Part shown: in pieces, positions 30,775-45,272 of the stretch | Layout: every line of letters begins with the position of its first letter | Numbering within the stretch: position 1 is the stretch's first letter | NCBI GenBank assembly: GCA_028871475.1 | Contig: JAGWMZ010000009.1 | Coordinates: 97,886-161,885 of the forward strand | Direction of reading: 5' to 3' | Length of the DNA stretch: 64,000 nt | Origin: Sphingomonadales bacterium | Lineage (GTDB): Bacteria > Pseudomonadota > Alphaproteobacteria > Sphingomonadales > Sphingomonadaceae | Made by a program: the position numbers and the translations under genes | The notes under the pieces: generated by a model | What the model saw: only the letters and a program-made list of their open reading frames with translations | Told to the model about the DNA's origin: nothing | Databases searched by the model: none

Positions 30775-30857
30775 GAGAGCATTCCTTGCAAAGACATCGG
30801 GATAACGGCAAAGGCATGGTAAAGTTGCGCCCGGCACCACTTCACCCGGAGACCCCC

Positions 30858-32978
30858 ATGCCAGCCCAGACCGATCAGCGCCACCCCGGCCTTTTGCCCA
30901 TTCGGGCATGGTGCAGGCTGGGCATGATTATGCTGGCCTGTCTGTGCCTTGGCGGCTGGGTGGGCGCGGCCAATGCGCAGGGGCGCAACCATATCGCCGC
31001 CCAGCTGGTGGCCGAGGGCAAGGGCGAGCCGGGCAAGGTCGTGACCATCGCGATCGACATGCATCCCGAGCATGGCTGGCATGGCTATTGGCTCAATCCA
31101 GGCGATGCCGGGCTGGGCATGACACTCGACTGGCACCTGCCCGAAGGGGCAAGCGTCGGCACGCCGCAATATCCGGTGCCCGAAACACTGGTGGTGGGCG
31201 GGTTGATGAACCATGTCTATCAGTCCGACTATGCGCTGCTGATTCCGCTGACCGTGCCGGACCATGCCGTGCCGGGGGGCAGCATGCCGATTTCGGTCAA
31301 GGCGCAATGGCTGGCCTGCACCGAACAGGTCTGTGTGCCAGAAAGTGCGGACCTTTCGCTCAACCTGCCGATTTCCGCCTTTCCCACAGCACGCGATGTC
31401 CGCTTCGATGCCTGGCGATCGCGGCTGCCCGCGCCGCTGGGCGCGCAGGCCCATATGGAGGTGGCGGGCGACAGCCTGCGTCTGGCCATTCCCTTTCCTG
31501 CCAGCGCGGCAATCAGTCGTCCGCATGTCTTTGCCGCCGACCAGCGCATCGTCGACTATGCCGCGCCGCAAAGGTTCGACCGTGCGGGCGACACGCTGAT
31601 CGTCACGCTCAAACGGGCAGCGGGCACTGCCGCCCCCACCAGCTTCAACGGCGTGCTGCGGCTCAACCCCGAAGGCGACGGCGTGACCATCGCCGCCACG
31701 CCCGGCCCGGTGCCGGCCGGGGGCACACCGCTCGACAGTGGGGAAGAGGTGGCGGCGACTCCCTCCTCGCCCCTGCCCTTGCTGATTCTGGCGGCCATCG
31801 CGGGTGGCTTGATGCTCAACATCATGCCCTGCGTCTTTCCCATCCTCAGCCTGAAGGCGCTCAGCCTGGCACGCGCGGGCGAATGCGAGGCCGAGGCGCG
31901 GATCGAGGGCGTGGCCTATGCCGCCGGCGTGATCCTGACCTGCGCGGCACTGGGCGCGGCGCTGCTGGCGTTGCGGGCGGGCGGGCAGCAGGTGGGCTGG
32001 GCCTTCCAGTTGCAGGAACCGGGCGTGGTGGCGCTGCTCTGGGTGCTGGCCGTGGCCGTAACGGCCAATCTGCTGGGCCTTTTTGAGGTTTTCGCCCCTA
32101 CGTTTGCCAGCCAGGCCGGCCATCTCGACAAGGCCAGCACCGCGCGACGGGGCTTTATCACGGGCCTGTTCGCCGCTTTCGTGGCCACGCCCTGCACCGG
32201 CCCCTTCATGGCCAGCGCCATGGGGGCGGCGCTGTTGCTGCCGGTGGTGCCCGCCATGCTGCTCTTTGTGGCGCTGGGCTTTGGCATTGCCCTGCCCTTT
32301 CTGGCCATCGCCTATGTTCCGCCGCTGCGCCGCCTGCTGCCGCATCCCGGCCCCTGGATGGTGTGGTTCAAGAAGGCCATGGCCGTGCCCATGGGGCTGA
32401 CGGCGCTGGGGCTTTTGTGGCTGGCCAGCCGAATGGGCGGGGCCAGCTTCGCCGGGCTGTGCCTCGTGCTGGCCATCGTGGCGCTGACCGTGTTGACCGG
32501 GCTGGGGCGCCAGCAAAGGGCGGGCAAGGGCGGCGGACGGATGGCGCTGGCGATGATGGGGGTGGTGGCGCTGTTCGCACTGGTCGTGCTGCCGCGCCAT
32601 GTCCATGCGCCGGGCGCCGAAACGCAGGGCATCCTGCCCAGCCAGCCCTTCAGCCAGGAAGCCCTCGACAAGGCACTGGCCGAGGGACACCCGGTCTTTG
32701 CCTATTTCACCGCCGACTGGTGCCTTTCCTGCAAGGTCAATGAGCGTCTCGCCATTGAGCGGGCAAGCACCCGCGATGCCTTTGAAAAAGCGGGTATCGT
32801 CGTGCTGAAAGGCGACTGGACCCGGCGCGACGCGGCCATCACCCGCTATCTGACAGCGCACGGGGCGGCGGGCGTGCCGCTCTATGTCTGGTATGGCAGG
32901 GGCGCGCAAAGCGCGGCGCCGCGCATTTTGCCGCAGGTGCTGACGCCAAAAACATTGCCCGATCTGGCCGCCAACTGA
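30858..32978 (+). CDS. Protein-disulfide reductase DsbD family (thioredoxin-like C-terminus)
   Basis: Multi-TM MPCVFPILSLKALSLA, TPCTGPFMASAMGAAL; C-terminal YFTADWCLSCKVNE thioredoxin motif; ATG at 30858. Confidence 0.9.
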   Translation: MPAQTDQRHPGLLPIRAWCRLGMIMLACLCLGGWVGAANAQGRNHIAAQLVAEGKGEPGKVVTIAIDMHPEHGWHGYWLNPGDAGLGMTLDWHLPEGASVGTPQYPVPETLVVGGLMNHVYQSDYALLIPLTVPDHAVPGGSMPISVKAQWLACTEQVCVPESADLSLNLPISAFPTARDVRFDAWRSRLPAPLGAQAHMEVAGDSLRLAIPFPASAAISRPHVFAADQRIVDYAAPQRFDRAGDTLIVTLKRAAGTAAPTSFNGVLRLNPEGDGVTIAATPGPVPAGGTPLDSGEEVAATPSSPLPLLILAAIAGGLMLNIMPCVFPILSLKALSLARAGECEAEARIEGVAYAAGVILTCAALGAALLALRAGGQQVGWAFQLQEPGVVALLWVLAVAVTANLLGLFEVFAPTFASQAGHLDKASTARRGFITGLFAAFVATPCTGPFMASAMGAALLLPVVPAMLLFVALGFGIALPFLAIAYVPPLRRLLPHPGPWMVWFKKAMAVPMGLTALGLLWLASRMGGASFAGLCLVLAIVALTVLTGLGRQQRAGKGGGRMALAMMGVVALFALVVLPRHVHAPGAETQGILPSQPFSQEALDKALAEGHPVFAYFTADWCLSCKVNERLAIERASTRDAFEKAGIVVLKGDWTRRDAAITRYLTAHGAAGVPLYVWYGRGAQSAAPRILPQVLTPKTLPDLAAN

Positions 32979-33000: not shown

Positions 33001-33014
33001 TTGACCGCGATCAA
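33001..33014. promoter_or_regulatory. Candidate FNR box TTGAC-CGCG-ATCAA
   Basis: One mismatch to TTGAT-N4-ATCAA; centre at 33007.5 would sit near -41.5 for a start at ~33049. Confidence 0.65.
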
Positions 33015-33048
33015 GGTTTTGACCGTGCGGCGCATCTAGACAGACATC

Positions 33049-33219
33049 AGCACGGAGACGATGTTGTAAGCCATCACCTCCCTGCTGCGATGGGGTCCTC
33101 GGATCGGGGGTTCCGGATGAGCAGTCTTATCGGGGCTGCAAGTGACCCCATCGCATGTTTTTCCGGTGTTGAGTTCTCCCCACTAGGGCGGCTGTCGATT
33201 TACAGCCGCCTGTTTTTTT
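33049..33219 (+). ncRNA. Candidate FNR-controlled small RNA (~170 nt)
   Basis: No plausible CDS; 11-bp stem GCGATGGGGTC (33087-33097) / GACCCCATCGC (33144-33154), alternative stem CCATC/GATGG with CCTCCC in the loop, and a terminator at 33187-33219. Confidence 0.6.
33187..33219 (+). terminator. Intrinsic terminator
   Basis: GGCGGCTGT-CGATTT-ACAGCCGCC-TGTTTTTTT, 9-bp perfect stem plus U tract. Confidence 0.93.
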
Positions 33220-33287: not shown

Positions 33288-34625
33288 TTAAACGGCGGAG
33301 CTGAACCGGCGGGCGTTGTGTCCGCGATAGGGATCGAAGATGGCGGCGATCGTGCGCGCATAGGGCAACGCGCCGGGCAACAGCGTCAGCTTGCCGCCGT
33401 CAAGCCGGACAAGGCCACGCTCGACAAAGGGGCGCAATGCCTCGCCATGCAGGATCGCCAGTTCGCCACCGATGCGCGCATGCCCCTGACACAGGATCGC
33501 CTCGATGATGCGGCCGAGATACTGGTCGCCACGGTCACGCGCGACGCCGTGGGCGCCGGTCAACTGGTCCTGCGAGAGCAGCAGGCGATAACGCCCGGCG
33601 TTTTTCTCATTCTGCACGATGCGGTCGGGAAAGGAGGAGATCGCCGACGCGCCCAGCCCCACCAGCACTGGCGAGGTATCCTCGGTAAAGCCCTGGAAAT
33701 TGCGATGCAGCCGCCCGGCCACCGCCGCCTGGGCAATGGCATCGCCGGGACGGGCGAAATGGTCAAAGCCGATCGGCTGATAGCCGGCATTGACCAGATA
33801 GTCATAGCCGCGCGCCGCCATGGCAAAGCGCTCCTCCTGCCCCGGCAGCGCAGAGGCATCGATACGGCGCTGGCGGGGCAGCAGATGCGGCACATGGGCA
33901 TAGCCAAAGAGCGCGATCCGTTCCGCGCCCAGTTCGACCGTGCGCGCCAGCGAGGCTTCGACATCGTCCCAGCTTTGCCCCGGCAGTCCATACATCAGAT
34001 CGTAATTAAGCGAGGTCACGCCTGCCTCGCGCAGCATGGCCGTCACCTGCTCGATCACGGCATCGGGCTGAACCCGGCCAATGGCGGCCTGCAGCGCCGG
34101 GGCAAAGGTCTGCACGCCAAGGCTGGCGCGCGTGACCCCCACGCCGCCCAGCACATAGGCCCAGTCACGCGTCATGGTGCGCGGGTCAAGCTCGATGGAA
34201 AAGACCGGGTCCGCCAGCGAGAAATGCAGCGTAATGGCATCGACCAGCCGCGCGAAATCGGTTGGGCTGATGGCATTGGGGCTACCTCCGCCAAAGGCGA
34301 TGCGGCGCACCTTCACCCGCCCGTCCAGCCGATCGCCCACCAGAGCGATTTCGCGCGACAGCGCCTCAAGATAGGCCGTCAGCCGCGCCGTGCGATTGGC
34401 CGCGCCCGTGTTGCAGCCGCAATACCAGCAGATCTGCTCGCAATAGGGAATGTGGACATAGAGCGAGACATCCCCGCTCGTGGCATCAAGCGCCTGCACC
34501 TGCGCCACTTGCGCCGATACTCCGCCCACCGCGGCGCCAAATTCGGCCGCCGTGGGAAAGCTGGTGTAGCGCGGCACGGGCCGTGACAACAGGTCGGGGT
34601 AATAGGGCCAGGCAAGCTTCGTCAT
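33288..34625 (-). CDS. hemN: Oxygen-independent coproporphyrinogen III oxidase
   Basis: PRYTSFPTAAEF...SLYVHIPYCEQICWYCGCNT radical-SAM CxxxCxxC; start refined to the ATG at 34625. Confidence 0.96.
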   Translation of the reverse strand: MTKLAWPYYPDLLSRPVPRYTSFPTAAEFGAAVGGVSAQVAQVQALDATSGDVSLYVHIPYCEQICWYCGCNTGAANRTARLTAYLEALSREIALVGDRLDGRVKVRRIAFGGGSPNAISPTDFARLVDAITLHFSLADPVFSIELDPRTMTRDWAYVLGGVGVTRASLGVQTFAPALQAAIGRVQPDAVIEQVTAMLREAGVTSLNYDLMYGLPGQSWDDVEASLARTVELGAERIALFGYAHVPHLLPRQRRIDASALPGQEERFAMAARGYDYLVNAGYQPIGFDHFARPGDAIAQAAVAGRLHRNFQGFTEDTSPVLVGLGASAISSFPDRIVQNEKNAGRYRLLLSQDQLTGAHGVARDRGDQYLGRIIEAILCQGHARIGGELAILHGEALRPFVERGLVRLDGGKLTLLPGALPYARTIAAIFDPYRGHNARRFSSAV

Positions 34626-34656
34626 GCAGGAAGGATGACTCAGGAGGCCCGAATGA

Positions 34657-34914
34657 TCATTGCGCCGGATCAAACCGACCGCGCCTGCCCTTTTTCCGAG
34701 TGCCCGTCTGGCACCCCTTGGCGCAGCATCCGGGCTGTTCGGCACCGGGAATGTCCTGATGGCCCAGCGGCACCGAGATCGTGCGCGCGCCGCCCAGCCC
34801 GTCGCAGACCGCCAGCGTCAGCTTGTCCCCATCATGGGCAGGCGCTGCCCCCACGGCGGCAGGCACAAGGGCCACCAACCCCAGCACGGTGACCAGCCTG
34901 ACGCCGCCCCTCAT
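34657..34914 (-). CDS. Small secreted Cys-containing hypothetical protein
   Basis: MRGGVRLVTVLGLVALVPAAVGA signal peptide; QPGCCAKGCQTG near the C-terminus; start overlaps the ccoS end. Confidence 0.6.
   Translation of the reverse strand: MRGGVRLVTVLGLVALVPAAVGAAPAHDGDKLTLAVCDGLGGARTISVPLGHQDIPGAEQPGCCAKGCQTGTRKKGRRGRFDPAQ
34660..34673. promoter_or_regulatory. Candidate FNR-like box TTGCG-CCGG-ATCAA upstream of hemN
   Basis: Two mismatches to TTGAT-N4-ATCAA; 35 bp upstream of the hemN ATG. Confidence 0.4.
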
Positions 34915-41067: not shown

Positions 41068-42738
41068 TTATTCGGCAGGCACGGCGACATGCTGGCCAAG
41101 GGGCCGGTCATTGTCGCGGTTCTGGTCGATGTTGTGCAGCGGCTTTTCGTCACGCTGGTCGCCAATGGCGATGGTGCGCCAGATGTTGTAGGTCATGACG
41201 CAGGCACCAATGAGGTAGAGCAACCCGCCAAAGGCGCGCAGCACATACATCGGGTGGATCGCGGCGACGCCATCGGCAAAGCTGTTCACCAGATAGCCGT
41301 CAGCGCCATATTCACGCCACATCAGCCCCTGGGTGATGCCCGCAACCCACATGCTGGCGGCATAGAACACGATGCCCAGCGTGGCGGTCCAGAAGTGCCA
41401 GTTGACCATGCGCAGCGAATAGAGCTGCGCGCGGCCCCAGAGACGCGGCACCATGTAATAGAGCGCGCCAAAGGTCACCATGCCGTTCCAGCCCAGCGCG
41501 CCGGAATGCACATGGCCGATGGTCCAGTTGGTGTAGTGGCTGAGCGAGTTGACGCTTTTCACCGACATCATCGGCCCTTCGAACGTGCTCATGCCGTAGA
41601 AGGCGAGACTCATCACGAACATGCGCAGGATCGGGTCGGTGCGCAGCTTGTCCCAGGCGCCGTTGAGCGTCATCAAGCCGTTGATCATGCCGCCCCAGCT
41701 CGGCATCCACAGCATGACGCTGAACACCATCCCCAGCGTCTGGGCCCAGTCGGGCAGCGCGGTGTAGTGCAGGTGATGCGGCCCGGCCCAGATGTAGAGG
41801 AAGATCAGCGCCCAGAAGTGGATGATCGACAGGCGATAGCTATAGACCGGACGCTGGGCCTGCTTGGGCACGAAATAATACATCATGCCCAGGAAGCCCG
41901 CGGTCAGGAAGAAGCCCACCGCATTGTGGCCATACCACCACTGCACCATGGCCCCCTGCACGCCGCCGAAGAAGCTGATCGAGCGGGCACCAAGGAAGCT
42001 GACAGGAATGGCCATGTTGTTGACCAGATGCAGCATCGCCACGGTGATGATGAAGGAGAGGTAGAACCAGTTGGCCACATAGATATGGGGTTCGCTGCGC
42101 CGCACGATGGTGAAGGCAAAGACCACCAGATAGGCGACCCACACGACCGTCAGCCACAGGTCGACATACCATTCGGGCTCGGCATATTCCTTGCCCTGCG
42201 TGACGCCCAGCAGATAGCCGGTGGCGGCCAGCACGATGAAGAGCTGATAACCCCAGAAGACGAAACGGGCCAGGCCCGGGAAGGCAAGCCTGGCCCGGCA
42301 GGTGCGCTGCACCACATAAAAGCTCGTGGCGATCAGCGCATTGCCCCCAAAGGCGAAGATCACGGCAGAGGTGTGCAGCGGGCGCATACGGCCAAAGTTG
42401 AACCAAGGCTCAAAGTTGAGCTGCGGGAACGAGAGCTGGAGCGCGATGGTCAGCCCCACCAAAAAGCCCGCCATGCCCCAGAACACCGTGGCAATGGTGG
42501 CCCAGCGGATCACCTCGTCATCATAAAGACTTGTGTTGGCGGGCGGCGCATTGGGCAAACCGCGCGCGATGCGATCATAACGCGCGCCGCGCAGCGCAAA
42601 CCACAGGGCCGCCAGCGCCGCCACGGCGCAAGTCCCCATCTGAATCGAAAATGCAGTGTCCTGCGCCGCGACCATAGCGACGAAACAGGCCAGAAACAGC
42701 ACCAGCCACAGGCTGGCGCGCGAAACAAGCGTGACCAT
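41068..42738 (-). CDS. ccoN: cbb3-type cytochrome c oxidase subunit I
   Basis: [28 protein letters not shown]...[29 protein letters not shown]. Confidence 0.97.
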
Positions 42739-42800: not shown

Positions 42801-42814
42801 TTGATCCGCGTCAA
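42801..42814. promoter_or_regulatory. FNR box TTGAT-CCGC-GTCAA, ccoN-proximal
   Basis: One mismatch to TTGAT-N4-ATCAA; in the divergent ccoN/ompW intergenic region. Confidence 0.75.
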
Positions 42815-43710: not shown

Positions 43711-43748
43711 AGGCAGAGGGCGGGAAGGCGCTTCTCTGCCTGTTTTTT
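43711..43748 (+). terminator. Intrinsic terminator downstream of ompW
   Basis: AGGCAGAG ... CTCTGCCT followed by GTTTTTTAT. Confidence 0.8.
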
Positions 43749-44445
43749 ATCCGGCTTCGGCCATCAACGCATGGCGGTCGACGATGACCACCTCGCGCCG
43801 GCTGGGCAGTTCAACCAGGCCATCGCCCTTCAGACGGGTGAACTGGCGGCTGACCGTCTCGATCGTCAGGCCCAGCACATCGGCGATCTGCTGGCGCGAA
43901 AAGGGCAGGCTGAAGCTTTGCGCCGGGGCCCCCGACGCGGTCTGACAGGTGGTGGGCGTCAACCGTTCGGAGAGTTCCAGCAGAAAGCTGGCGACCTTTT
44001 CGCTGGCCGATTTGCGACCGAGCAGCAGCATCCAGCGCCGCGTGCGATCCAGCTCGCCCAGGGTGCGTTGCAACAGCTTGTGTTCAAGATCGGGGTGCTG
44101 CCGGGCAAAACCGTCGAAATCGACGCGCGAAAACACGCAGACCCGCGCATCGGTCAAAGCCGTGACGCCGTGATTGGTCGTGCCGCCAAAGGGGCGGCCG
44201 ATGAAATCGGAAGGGTAAACCACGCCCACAATCTGCTCGCGCCCGTCCTCCGTGCCGGTGGAGAGCTTGAGCACCCCCTCGATCACATTGGCGACGAGGA
44301 CCGAATCCTCACCCTCCCAGATCAGGCTTTCGCCCGCCACAAGGTTGCGGCGGCGGCCGATCGTGCTGAGCGCGCTGATCTCGTCGGGGGCGAGCGCGGA
44401 ACAGATCGCTCTGTTGCGCACCACGCACGTATCGCAGTTTGACAT
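43747..44445 (-). CDS. Crp/Fnr family regulator of FNR type (4Fe-4S cysteines)
   Basis: MSNCDTCVVRNRAICSALAPDEI N-terminal Cys cluster; C-terminal SRQQIADVLGLTIETVSRQFTRLKGDGL HTH (E..SR recognition helix). Confidence 0.93.
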   Translation of the reverse strand: MSNCDTCVVRNRAICSALAPDEISALSTIGRRRNLVAGESLIWEGEDSVLVANVIEGVLKLSTGTEDGREQIVGVVYPSDFIGRPFGGTTNHGVTALTDARVCVFSRVDFDGFARQHPDLEHKLLQRTLGELDRTRRWMLLLGRKSASEKVASFLLELSERLTPTTCQTASGAPAQSFSLPFSRQQIADVLGLTIETVSRQFTRLKGDGLVELPSRREVVIVDRHALMAEAG

Positions 44446-44519
44446 GGACCCCTCATAGCATCCGGTCGGCGCCGAAGCAATGACACGTAAGGTCAAGCCT
44501 TTCGCAACCCCCGAAAGGA

Positions 44520-45272
44520 TCACAGGATTTCGGCGACACCAGCCAGAGCCGCGCGCAGACGGTCAATCGCCTGCGCCTTCAATTGGTGAACGCGCGGGAT
44601 CGATACGCTGAGCACTTCGGCGATTTCGGCCAGATTGAGCTCCTCGACAAAGTAAAGCTGGATCACCATCTGCAGCCTTTCGGGCAGTTCGCTGATGGCG
44701 CCGGCGACACTTTCGCGCAGCTCCTGATCTTCAAGCAGAGCCAGCGAATCCGGGCGATCATCGGCAAAGGCCATGCTGCTGTCACTATAGGCCTCGTCCA
44801 GCGCCTCGAAACGCAAGGGCTCGGACATGGCACGCAATCCTTCAAGTTCGCTCAAGGTCAGCCCCAATGCTGCGGCAAGTTCACTGTCATAAGGTTCACG
44901 GCCCAACTGGGTGGTCAGCAGGCTATGCTTCTCGCGCATCATGCGTCGCCGTTCCGCCCCCCCGCGCGACAAGGGCACATGGCGGCGGATGAGATCGACC
45001 ATCGCCCCCCTCACCCGCATCTTGGCATAGGCGGCAAAGCCGTCCTCGCTGGGGCTGTTGTGCTTTTGCGAGCATTCGGTCAGCGCCACCAGGCCCGCCT
45101 GCATCAGGTCCTCGACCTCGATGCCGTCGCGGCCGCCCTGCAGGTGCCAGGCCAGACGCCGCACCATGGGCATGAAACGCCGCACGCGATCGGTGGTGTC
45201 GCCACCATAGGCCGCGGCGATACGGCGACCGACCGCAGCGGCTGGAACGAAGGATTTGTGGTCGTGCATCAT
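44520..45272 (-). CDS. fliA: RNA polymerase sigma factor FliA (sigma-28)
   Basis: VEDLMQAGLVALTECSQ, RVRGAMVDLIRR, LPERLQMVIQLYFVEELNLAEIAEVLSVSIPRVHQLKAQAIDRLR; flagellar context. Confidence 0.9.
   Translation of the reverse strand: MMHDHKSFVPAAAVGRRIAAAYGGDTTDRVRRFMPMVRRLAWHLQGGRDGIEVEDLMQAGLVALTECSQKHNSPSEDGFAAYAKMRVRGAMVDLIRRHVPLSRGGAERRRMMREKHSLLTTQLGREPYDSELAAALGLTLSELEGLRAMSEPLRFEALDEAYSDSSMAFADDRPDSLALLEDQELRESVAGAISELPERLQMVIQLYFVEELNLAEIAEVLSVSIPRVHQLKAQAIDRLRAALAGVAEIL

Follow-up and report, generated by a model that had tools for sequence, protein, structure and literature searches.

Small RNAs (sRNAs) activated by FNR have been described in enterobacteria, Neisseria, and pseudomonads. 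FnrS in enterobacteria and AniS/FnrS in Neisseria are activated by FNR, are encoded in intergenic regions, end in a Rho-independent terminator, and are proposed to act by repression through pairing near ribosome-binding sites. The Cuckoo and other anti-Shine-Dalgarno sRNAs of Rhodobacter and rhizobia carry C-rich anti-Shine-Dalgarno motifs and are members of stress-sigma or other regulons. In Caulobacter crescentus, the sRNA RusT lowers many TonB-dependent receptor mRNAs; it is described as responding to iron and was found among the RNAs bound by Hfq (PMC11005374). The open-access papers searched yielded no description of the candidate Novosphingobium RNA reported here and no FNR-activated sRNA for Sphingomonadales. 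The published map of Novosphingobium transcription start sites comes from aerobic cultures only (PMC7471390).

We analyzed a stretch of 64,000 nucleotides from a sphingomonad genome (the window), in which an initial annotation had proposed an FNR-activated sRNA gene between a dsbD-like gene and hemN. Our results indicate that a small regulatory RNA, turned on at low oxygen by the oxygen sensor FNR, is very probably encoded in the gap next to hemN. The comparative support is strong and comes from the box at −41.5, the −10 element, the seed, the terminator, a genus-wide family, and its siting at fnr and hemN. What had to be revised is the proposed functional element: the conserved anti-Shine-Dalgarno-like sequence is UUCUCCCCA at 33174–33182, immediately ahead of the terminator, and not the CCTCCC originally singled out.

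The dsbD–hemN gap and its FNR box

The dsbD-like gene (30852–32978, plus strand; profile match below the curated cut-off) and the gene for a hemN-like oxygen-independent coproporphyrinogen III oxidase (33288–34745, minus strand; TIGR00538, 320.1 bits, just below the cut-off of 324.95) are convergent. From the dsbD end at 32978 to the hemN stop at 33288 the gap measures 309 bp, in agreement with the earlier estimate of about 310 bp. Past hemN, the minus strand carries a copper P-type ATPase gene (fixI-like), a small gene, fixG/ccoG, further open frames, ccoN (41068–42738), and a gene for an FnrL-like regulator of the FNR/CRP family (43747–44520), the presumed activator. The window genome (G000) is of the Novosphingobium type, and the closest named ortholog of the locus is found in N. 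rosa NBRC 15208.

The FNR box TTGACCGCGATCAA lies at 33001–33014 on the plus strand, exactly where it had been annotated, and is kept in N. rosa (L002) and in G218 (L005). It fits the FNR consensus of Sphingopyxis granuli TFA, TTGAc/t-N4-g/aTCAA (PMC7713065). Boxes of the form TTGAYN4RTCAA occur twice in the 64 kb of the window, against 0.08 expected, and the sole further one (42801–42814, plus strand) is 63 nt upstream of ccoN. In loci aligned on the box, an A at +38, conserved in 92% of 110 loci, is the strongest other conserved position in the −10 region; in the window it corresponds to 33038. We read this A as the second base of the −10 hexamer, here TAGACA at 33037–33042 (plus strand), which would set the start near +49 and the centre of the box at −41.5, the distance that the initial annotation had expected for activation. 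Its −10-like region at 33033–33038 is shifted by the conservation over the 110 loci, and the predicted start remains near 33049. The spacing from the box to the conserved A is fixed across the family, and most FNR promoters of S. granuli TFA likewise have their box at −41.5 (PMC7713065).

From this start, deduced from the −41.5 spacing, the predicted sRNA would run for about 171 nt on the plus strand (33049–33219). The RNA from 33045 to 33219 folds better than 200 of 200 dinucleotide shuffles (z −3.8). Its 5′ hairpin, AGCACGGAG/CTCCCTGCT (33049–33086, plus strand), buries CCTCCC, and the orthologs retain a hairpin at this place with other bases. The segment at 33076–33085, taken earlier for a functional CCTCCC loop, forms one arm of a stem and lacks conservation; nor is the alternative fold with ACCTCCCTGC in a loop favoured, these bases being mostly paired in the window RNA and their sequence not conserved. 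Both arms of the 11-bp stem previously described, GCGATGGGGTC/GACCCCATCGC (33087–33097/33144–33154), are present, but this element is not family-wide. The hairpin that they close (33087–33154, plus strand) is a lineage-specific insert, because it is common to only three of 196 genomes, those of the window, N. rosa, and one other species. Positions 33088–33117 form a block of 30 nt, CGATGGGGTCCTCGGATCGGGGGTTCCGGA, with a G-rich loop and one base differing among these three Novosphingobium species.

Downstream lies the conserved seed UUCUCCCCA (33174–33182, plus strand), which is complementary to Shine-Dalgarno sequences of the type UGGGGAGA and whose UCUCCC is invariant in 34 sequences. By folding prediction, the median probability that the seed is unpaired is 0.96 in the family; in the window RNA the values are mixed and the seed is only partly free. 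The intrinsic terminator reported at about 33187–33219 is well placed: a 10-bp stem (33186–33211) is followed by T7, which makes a one-directional terminator with U7 (33186–33219, plus strand) that shows covariation over 95 distinct sequences.

A predicted sRNA family in Novosphingobium

Plain DNA similarity gave one clear ortholog, N. rosa, among 60 relatives, and understated the size of the family. The N. rosa ortholog is syntenic and has the same FNR box, the 30-nt hairpin block with one difference, the C-rich stretch, and the terminator. A pattern search with up to three mismatches recovered three genomes in 196, the third being G218. A scan for dsbD gave 80 loci with names. Wherever a convergent hemN follows dsbD (14/14 loci), an FNR box lies about 160–650 nt before the hemN 3′ end, oriented toward hemN, and almost none of the dsbD loci without hemN has such a box nearby. 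The RNAs at the 14 convergent loci differ in sequence, yet all of them end in UUCUCCC(C/G)(A/G)(A/C)CU, followed by the terminator. The core of the family is this 3′ end: a mostly single-stranded UUCUCCCCA(A/C)CU and then the terminator.

A first covariance model (R1), centred on the long hairpin, produced many weak matches that were initially taken for chance terminators; most of those inspected proved to be true members sharing the 3′ end only. The second model (R2) was built from 34 3′ ends (alignment A3; 52 positions, about 50 nt) with the FNR box left out. R2 matched 176 of the 196 genomes of the genus at E ≤ 0.01. Judged by the listed best E-values, 146 genomes reach E ≤ 1e-5, and as a rule a genome has one strong match. 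We took 110 R2 matches and removed 24 that were identical to model seeds; the count is given for the remaining 86 because part of the seeds had been picked for having an FNR box. An exact TTGAN6TCAA on the same strand within 180 nt upstream was present at 76 of these 86 matches, whereas about 0.005 would be expected per upstream window at the same loci. Even among weak-end matches (E 2e-7 to 1e-5) the box was found in 17 of 20.

Most of the 10 non-seed matches without an exact box follow a LigB-like gene (a PF02900 match in the one case tested); one has a box with a single mismatch, and one comes from a genome in which no FnrL was detected (G063). The module UUCUCCCCACCU-terminator sits, with no FNR box, in the 3′ UTR of what looks like a LigB-type ring-cleavage dioxygenase gene (L003:1491–1560; close to the R2 match in L157, L167, L190, L191, L197, and L144), and is possibly a 3′UTR-derived sRNA with the same seed.

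A usual member is predicted to be about 96 nt long (65–152); it begins with a 5′ hairpin whose sequence varies, and the C-rich seed and the terminator follow. The terminator helix is 93.4% paired over the 95 distinct sequences, with 128 double-changed cells against 43 in the shuffled alignment and far fewer in slid controls; double changes occur in eight of the 10 pairs. The 5′ part of this sRNA family turns over, and promoter, seed, and terminator persist.

Searches with R2 at the family and class levels outside Novosphingobium returned mostly other terminators. About five loci outside the genus, scattered over a few further Sphingomonadaceae genera, resemble members, and four of them have an FNR box. 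Other Sphingomonadaceae genera have in common a conserved end of another kind, approximately GCAAYGC..CGAGUUCUCNACUU-terminator, without CTCCC (L250, L255, L258, L260, about 1490–1560), which is perhaps another uncatalogued sRNA. One member of a further alphaproteobacterial family has TTTCTCCCCAACTTTGGGCCGGC with a terminator (L262:1500–1560), and a search over 250 nt found no exact FNR box there.

Genomic siting and alternative readings

The 101 box-bearing members comprise 47 upstream of fnr, 46 beside hemN (32 convergent and 14 tail-to-head), and eight at other places, so that fnr or hemN accounts for 93/101. The family is thus found mainly at two sites, both of them part of the FNR system. 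A strong sRNA match was present in 140 of 171 genomes with FnrL (called at E ≤ 1e-50) and in six of 25 without it (Fisher p = 1.5e-8; table compiled by hand), several of these 25 being incomplete assemblies.

In 47/101 cases the element immediately precedes fnr and has the same orientation, and in many of these only about 60–140 nt separate the seed from the matched coding region of fnr. Such an arrangement would also suit a cis-acting fnr leader or attenuator whose terminator controls read-through, the hemN-side copies being relocated remnants. We regard this as unlikely. The window and the other genomes with the convergent hemN-side arrangement have no same-strand gene past the terminator, and nevertheless retain the FNR box, the spacing, the seed, and the terminator; moreover, the best conserved part is the single-stranded seed and not an anti-terminator pairing.

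Still less probable is an RNA processed from the dsbD 3′ UTR, with the FNR box controlling something else. It is true that dsbD is immediately upstream in the same direction, and that several genomes have the same 3′ end after a ligB-like ring-cleavage dioxygenase gene without any FNR box. Most members, however, are not behind dsbD, and in the large majority the FNR box is followed by a properly spaced −10 ahead of the RNA. One locus by itself would be compatible with a chance promoter next to the terminator of dsbD, the two being unrelated neighbours with no specific RNA; the fixed promoter spacing and the excess of boxes at unselected matches given above (76/86 vs. 0.005 per upstream window) leave this reading a very small probability. 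A small protein encoded from the ATG at 33090 is just as improbable and was rejected: the frame is open, but no Shine-Dalgarno sequence precedes it, the sole differing base of the three-species block alters an amino acid, and typical family members are missing the whole block, in keeping with the earlier statement that these ~170 nt hold no credible coding sequence.

Predicted action and comparison with described RNAs

We consider it highly likely that the locus encodes a trans-acting sRNA that is activated by FNR and uses its C-rich seed to block Shine-Dalgarno sites, TonB-dependent receptors being over-represented among the predicted targets. At low oxygen, an FnrL-type regulator, encoded 10 kb away, would bind the box at 33001–33014 and, from −41.5, activate RNA polymerase (class II activation). 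The resulting RNA of about 171 nt would extend from near 33049 to the terminator at 33219. Just 5′ of this terminator, the C-rich UUCUCCCCA, mostly unpaired in the family, may pair with Shine-Dalgarno sequences of the UGGGGAGA type, presumably with a chaperone such as Hfq. Such pairing would reduce the translation of selected mRNAs, those of TonB-dependent receptors among them, at a time when the high-affinity oxidase operon is turned on.

Targets were predicted with one motif pattern in eight genomes. In these, TGGGGAGA-N2-11-ATG was about ten times commoner than its reversed control, an excess that mainly reflects Shine-Dalgarno sites. TonB receptor plug domains were encoded by 10 of the 59 open reading frames that follow the TGGGGAGA-ATG pattern, against about 2% expected (binomial p ~6e-7); this background is based on 43–150 plug domains per genome and on gene totals estimated from genome size. 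With a different Shine-Dalgarno sequence as the control, which was small, TonB receptors were found in 0/16. TonB-dependent receptors thus seem to be over-represented among the predicted targets, and their genes might simply favour this Shine-Dalgarno sequence. The best example in the window genome is AUGGGGAGAUGUUAAAAAUG ahead of a TonB receptor gene (L299). A further candidate target is a family 5 solute-binding protein gene, preceded by TGGGGAGAYTTGGCAGTATG in the window genome and in N. rosa (G000:C61:28504 and G030:C70:16900; L296 and L322). Conservation of a predicted target was shown for this pair of genomes only.

A broader picture can be offered tentatively, and we hold it to be rather less likely than not to be right in full. 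The uncatalogued family may be the genus-wide post-transcriptional arm of the Novosphingobium FNR response, with its two main sites ahead of fnr and where the cbb3/hemN operon ends, and with only promoter, seed, and terminator kept, and it may shut down TonB nutrient receptors at low oxygen. The seed-terminator module would also have been captured in the ligB-like 3′ UTR, tying aromatic catabolism to the same targets. The predicted link runs from an oxygen sensor to nutrient uptake at the outer membrane. Sphingomonadales are used to degrade lignin aromatics and pollutants, and oxygen limitation is a practical issue in these applications. The family is defined well enough for direct testing in its promoter, predicted start, seed, and terminator; it has one main copy per genome, and its hosts include species that can be cultivated, N. 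rosa among them.

An Rfam scan gave no family at the gathering threshold in the window or in 33 related loci. This includes 6S RNA, which the initial annotation had named as a competing identity and which has no match at the Rfam threshold in the window. The suhB/mmgR family (RF00519), likewise a short alphaproteobacterial RNA with a terminator, scored weakly at full length over the same 3′ end (17.2 bits and E 0.31, where gathering requires 41 bits), and the window RNA is not counted among its members.

The description of the locus as an FnrS analogue applies to regulation and layout; homology to E. coli FnrS finds no support in the scan, in which no described RNA family matched at its gathering score. 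With a class II FNR box before a predicted non-coding transcript that has its own terminator, the locus can be placed in the functional class of FNR-dependent sRNAs. The Novosphingobium RNA would share with FnrS the activation by FNR, and it has in common with it the intergenic siting, the terminator, and the proposed pairing near ribosome-binding sites; it differs in its seed and in being restricted here to sphingomonads. With the Cuckoo and other anti-Shine-Dalgarno sRNAs it shares the C-rich anti-Shine-Dalgarno motif, whereas the FNR promoter belongs to the Novosphingobium RNA. RusT, which is likened to it by description and not by sequence, sets a precedent among alphaproteobacterial sRNAs for repressing TonB receptors.
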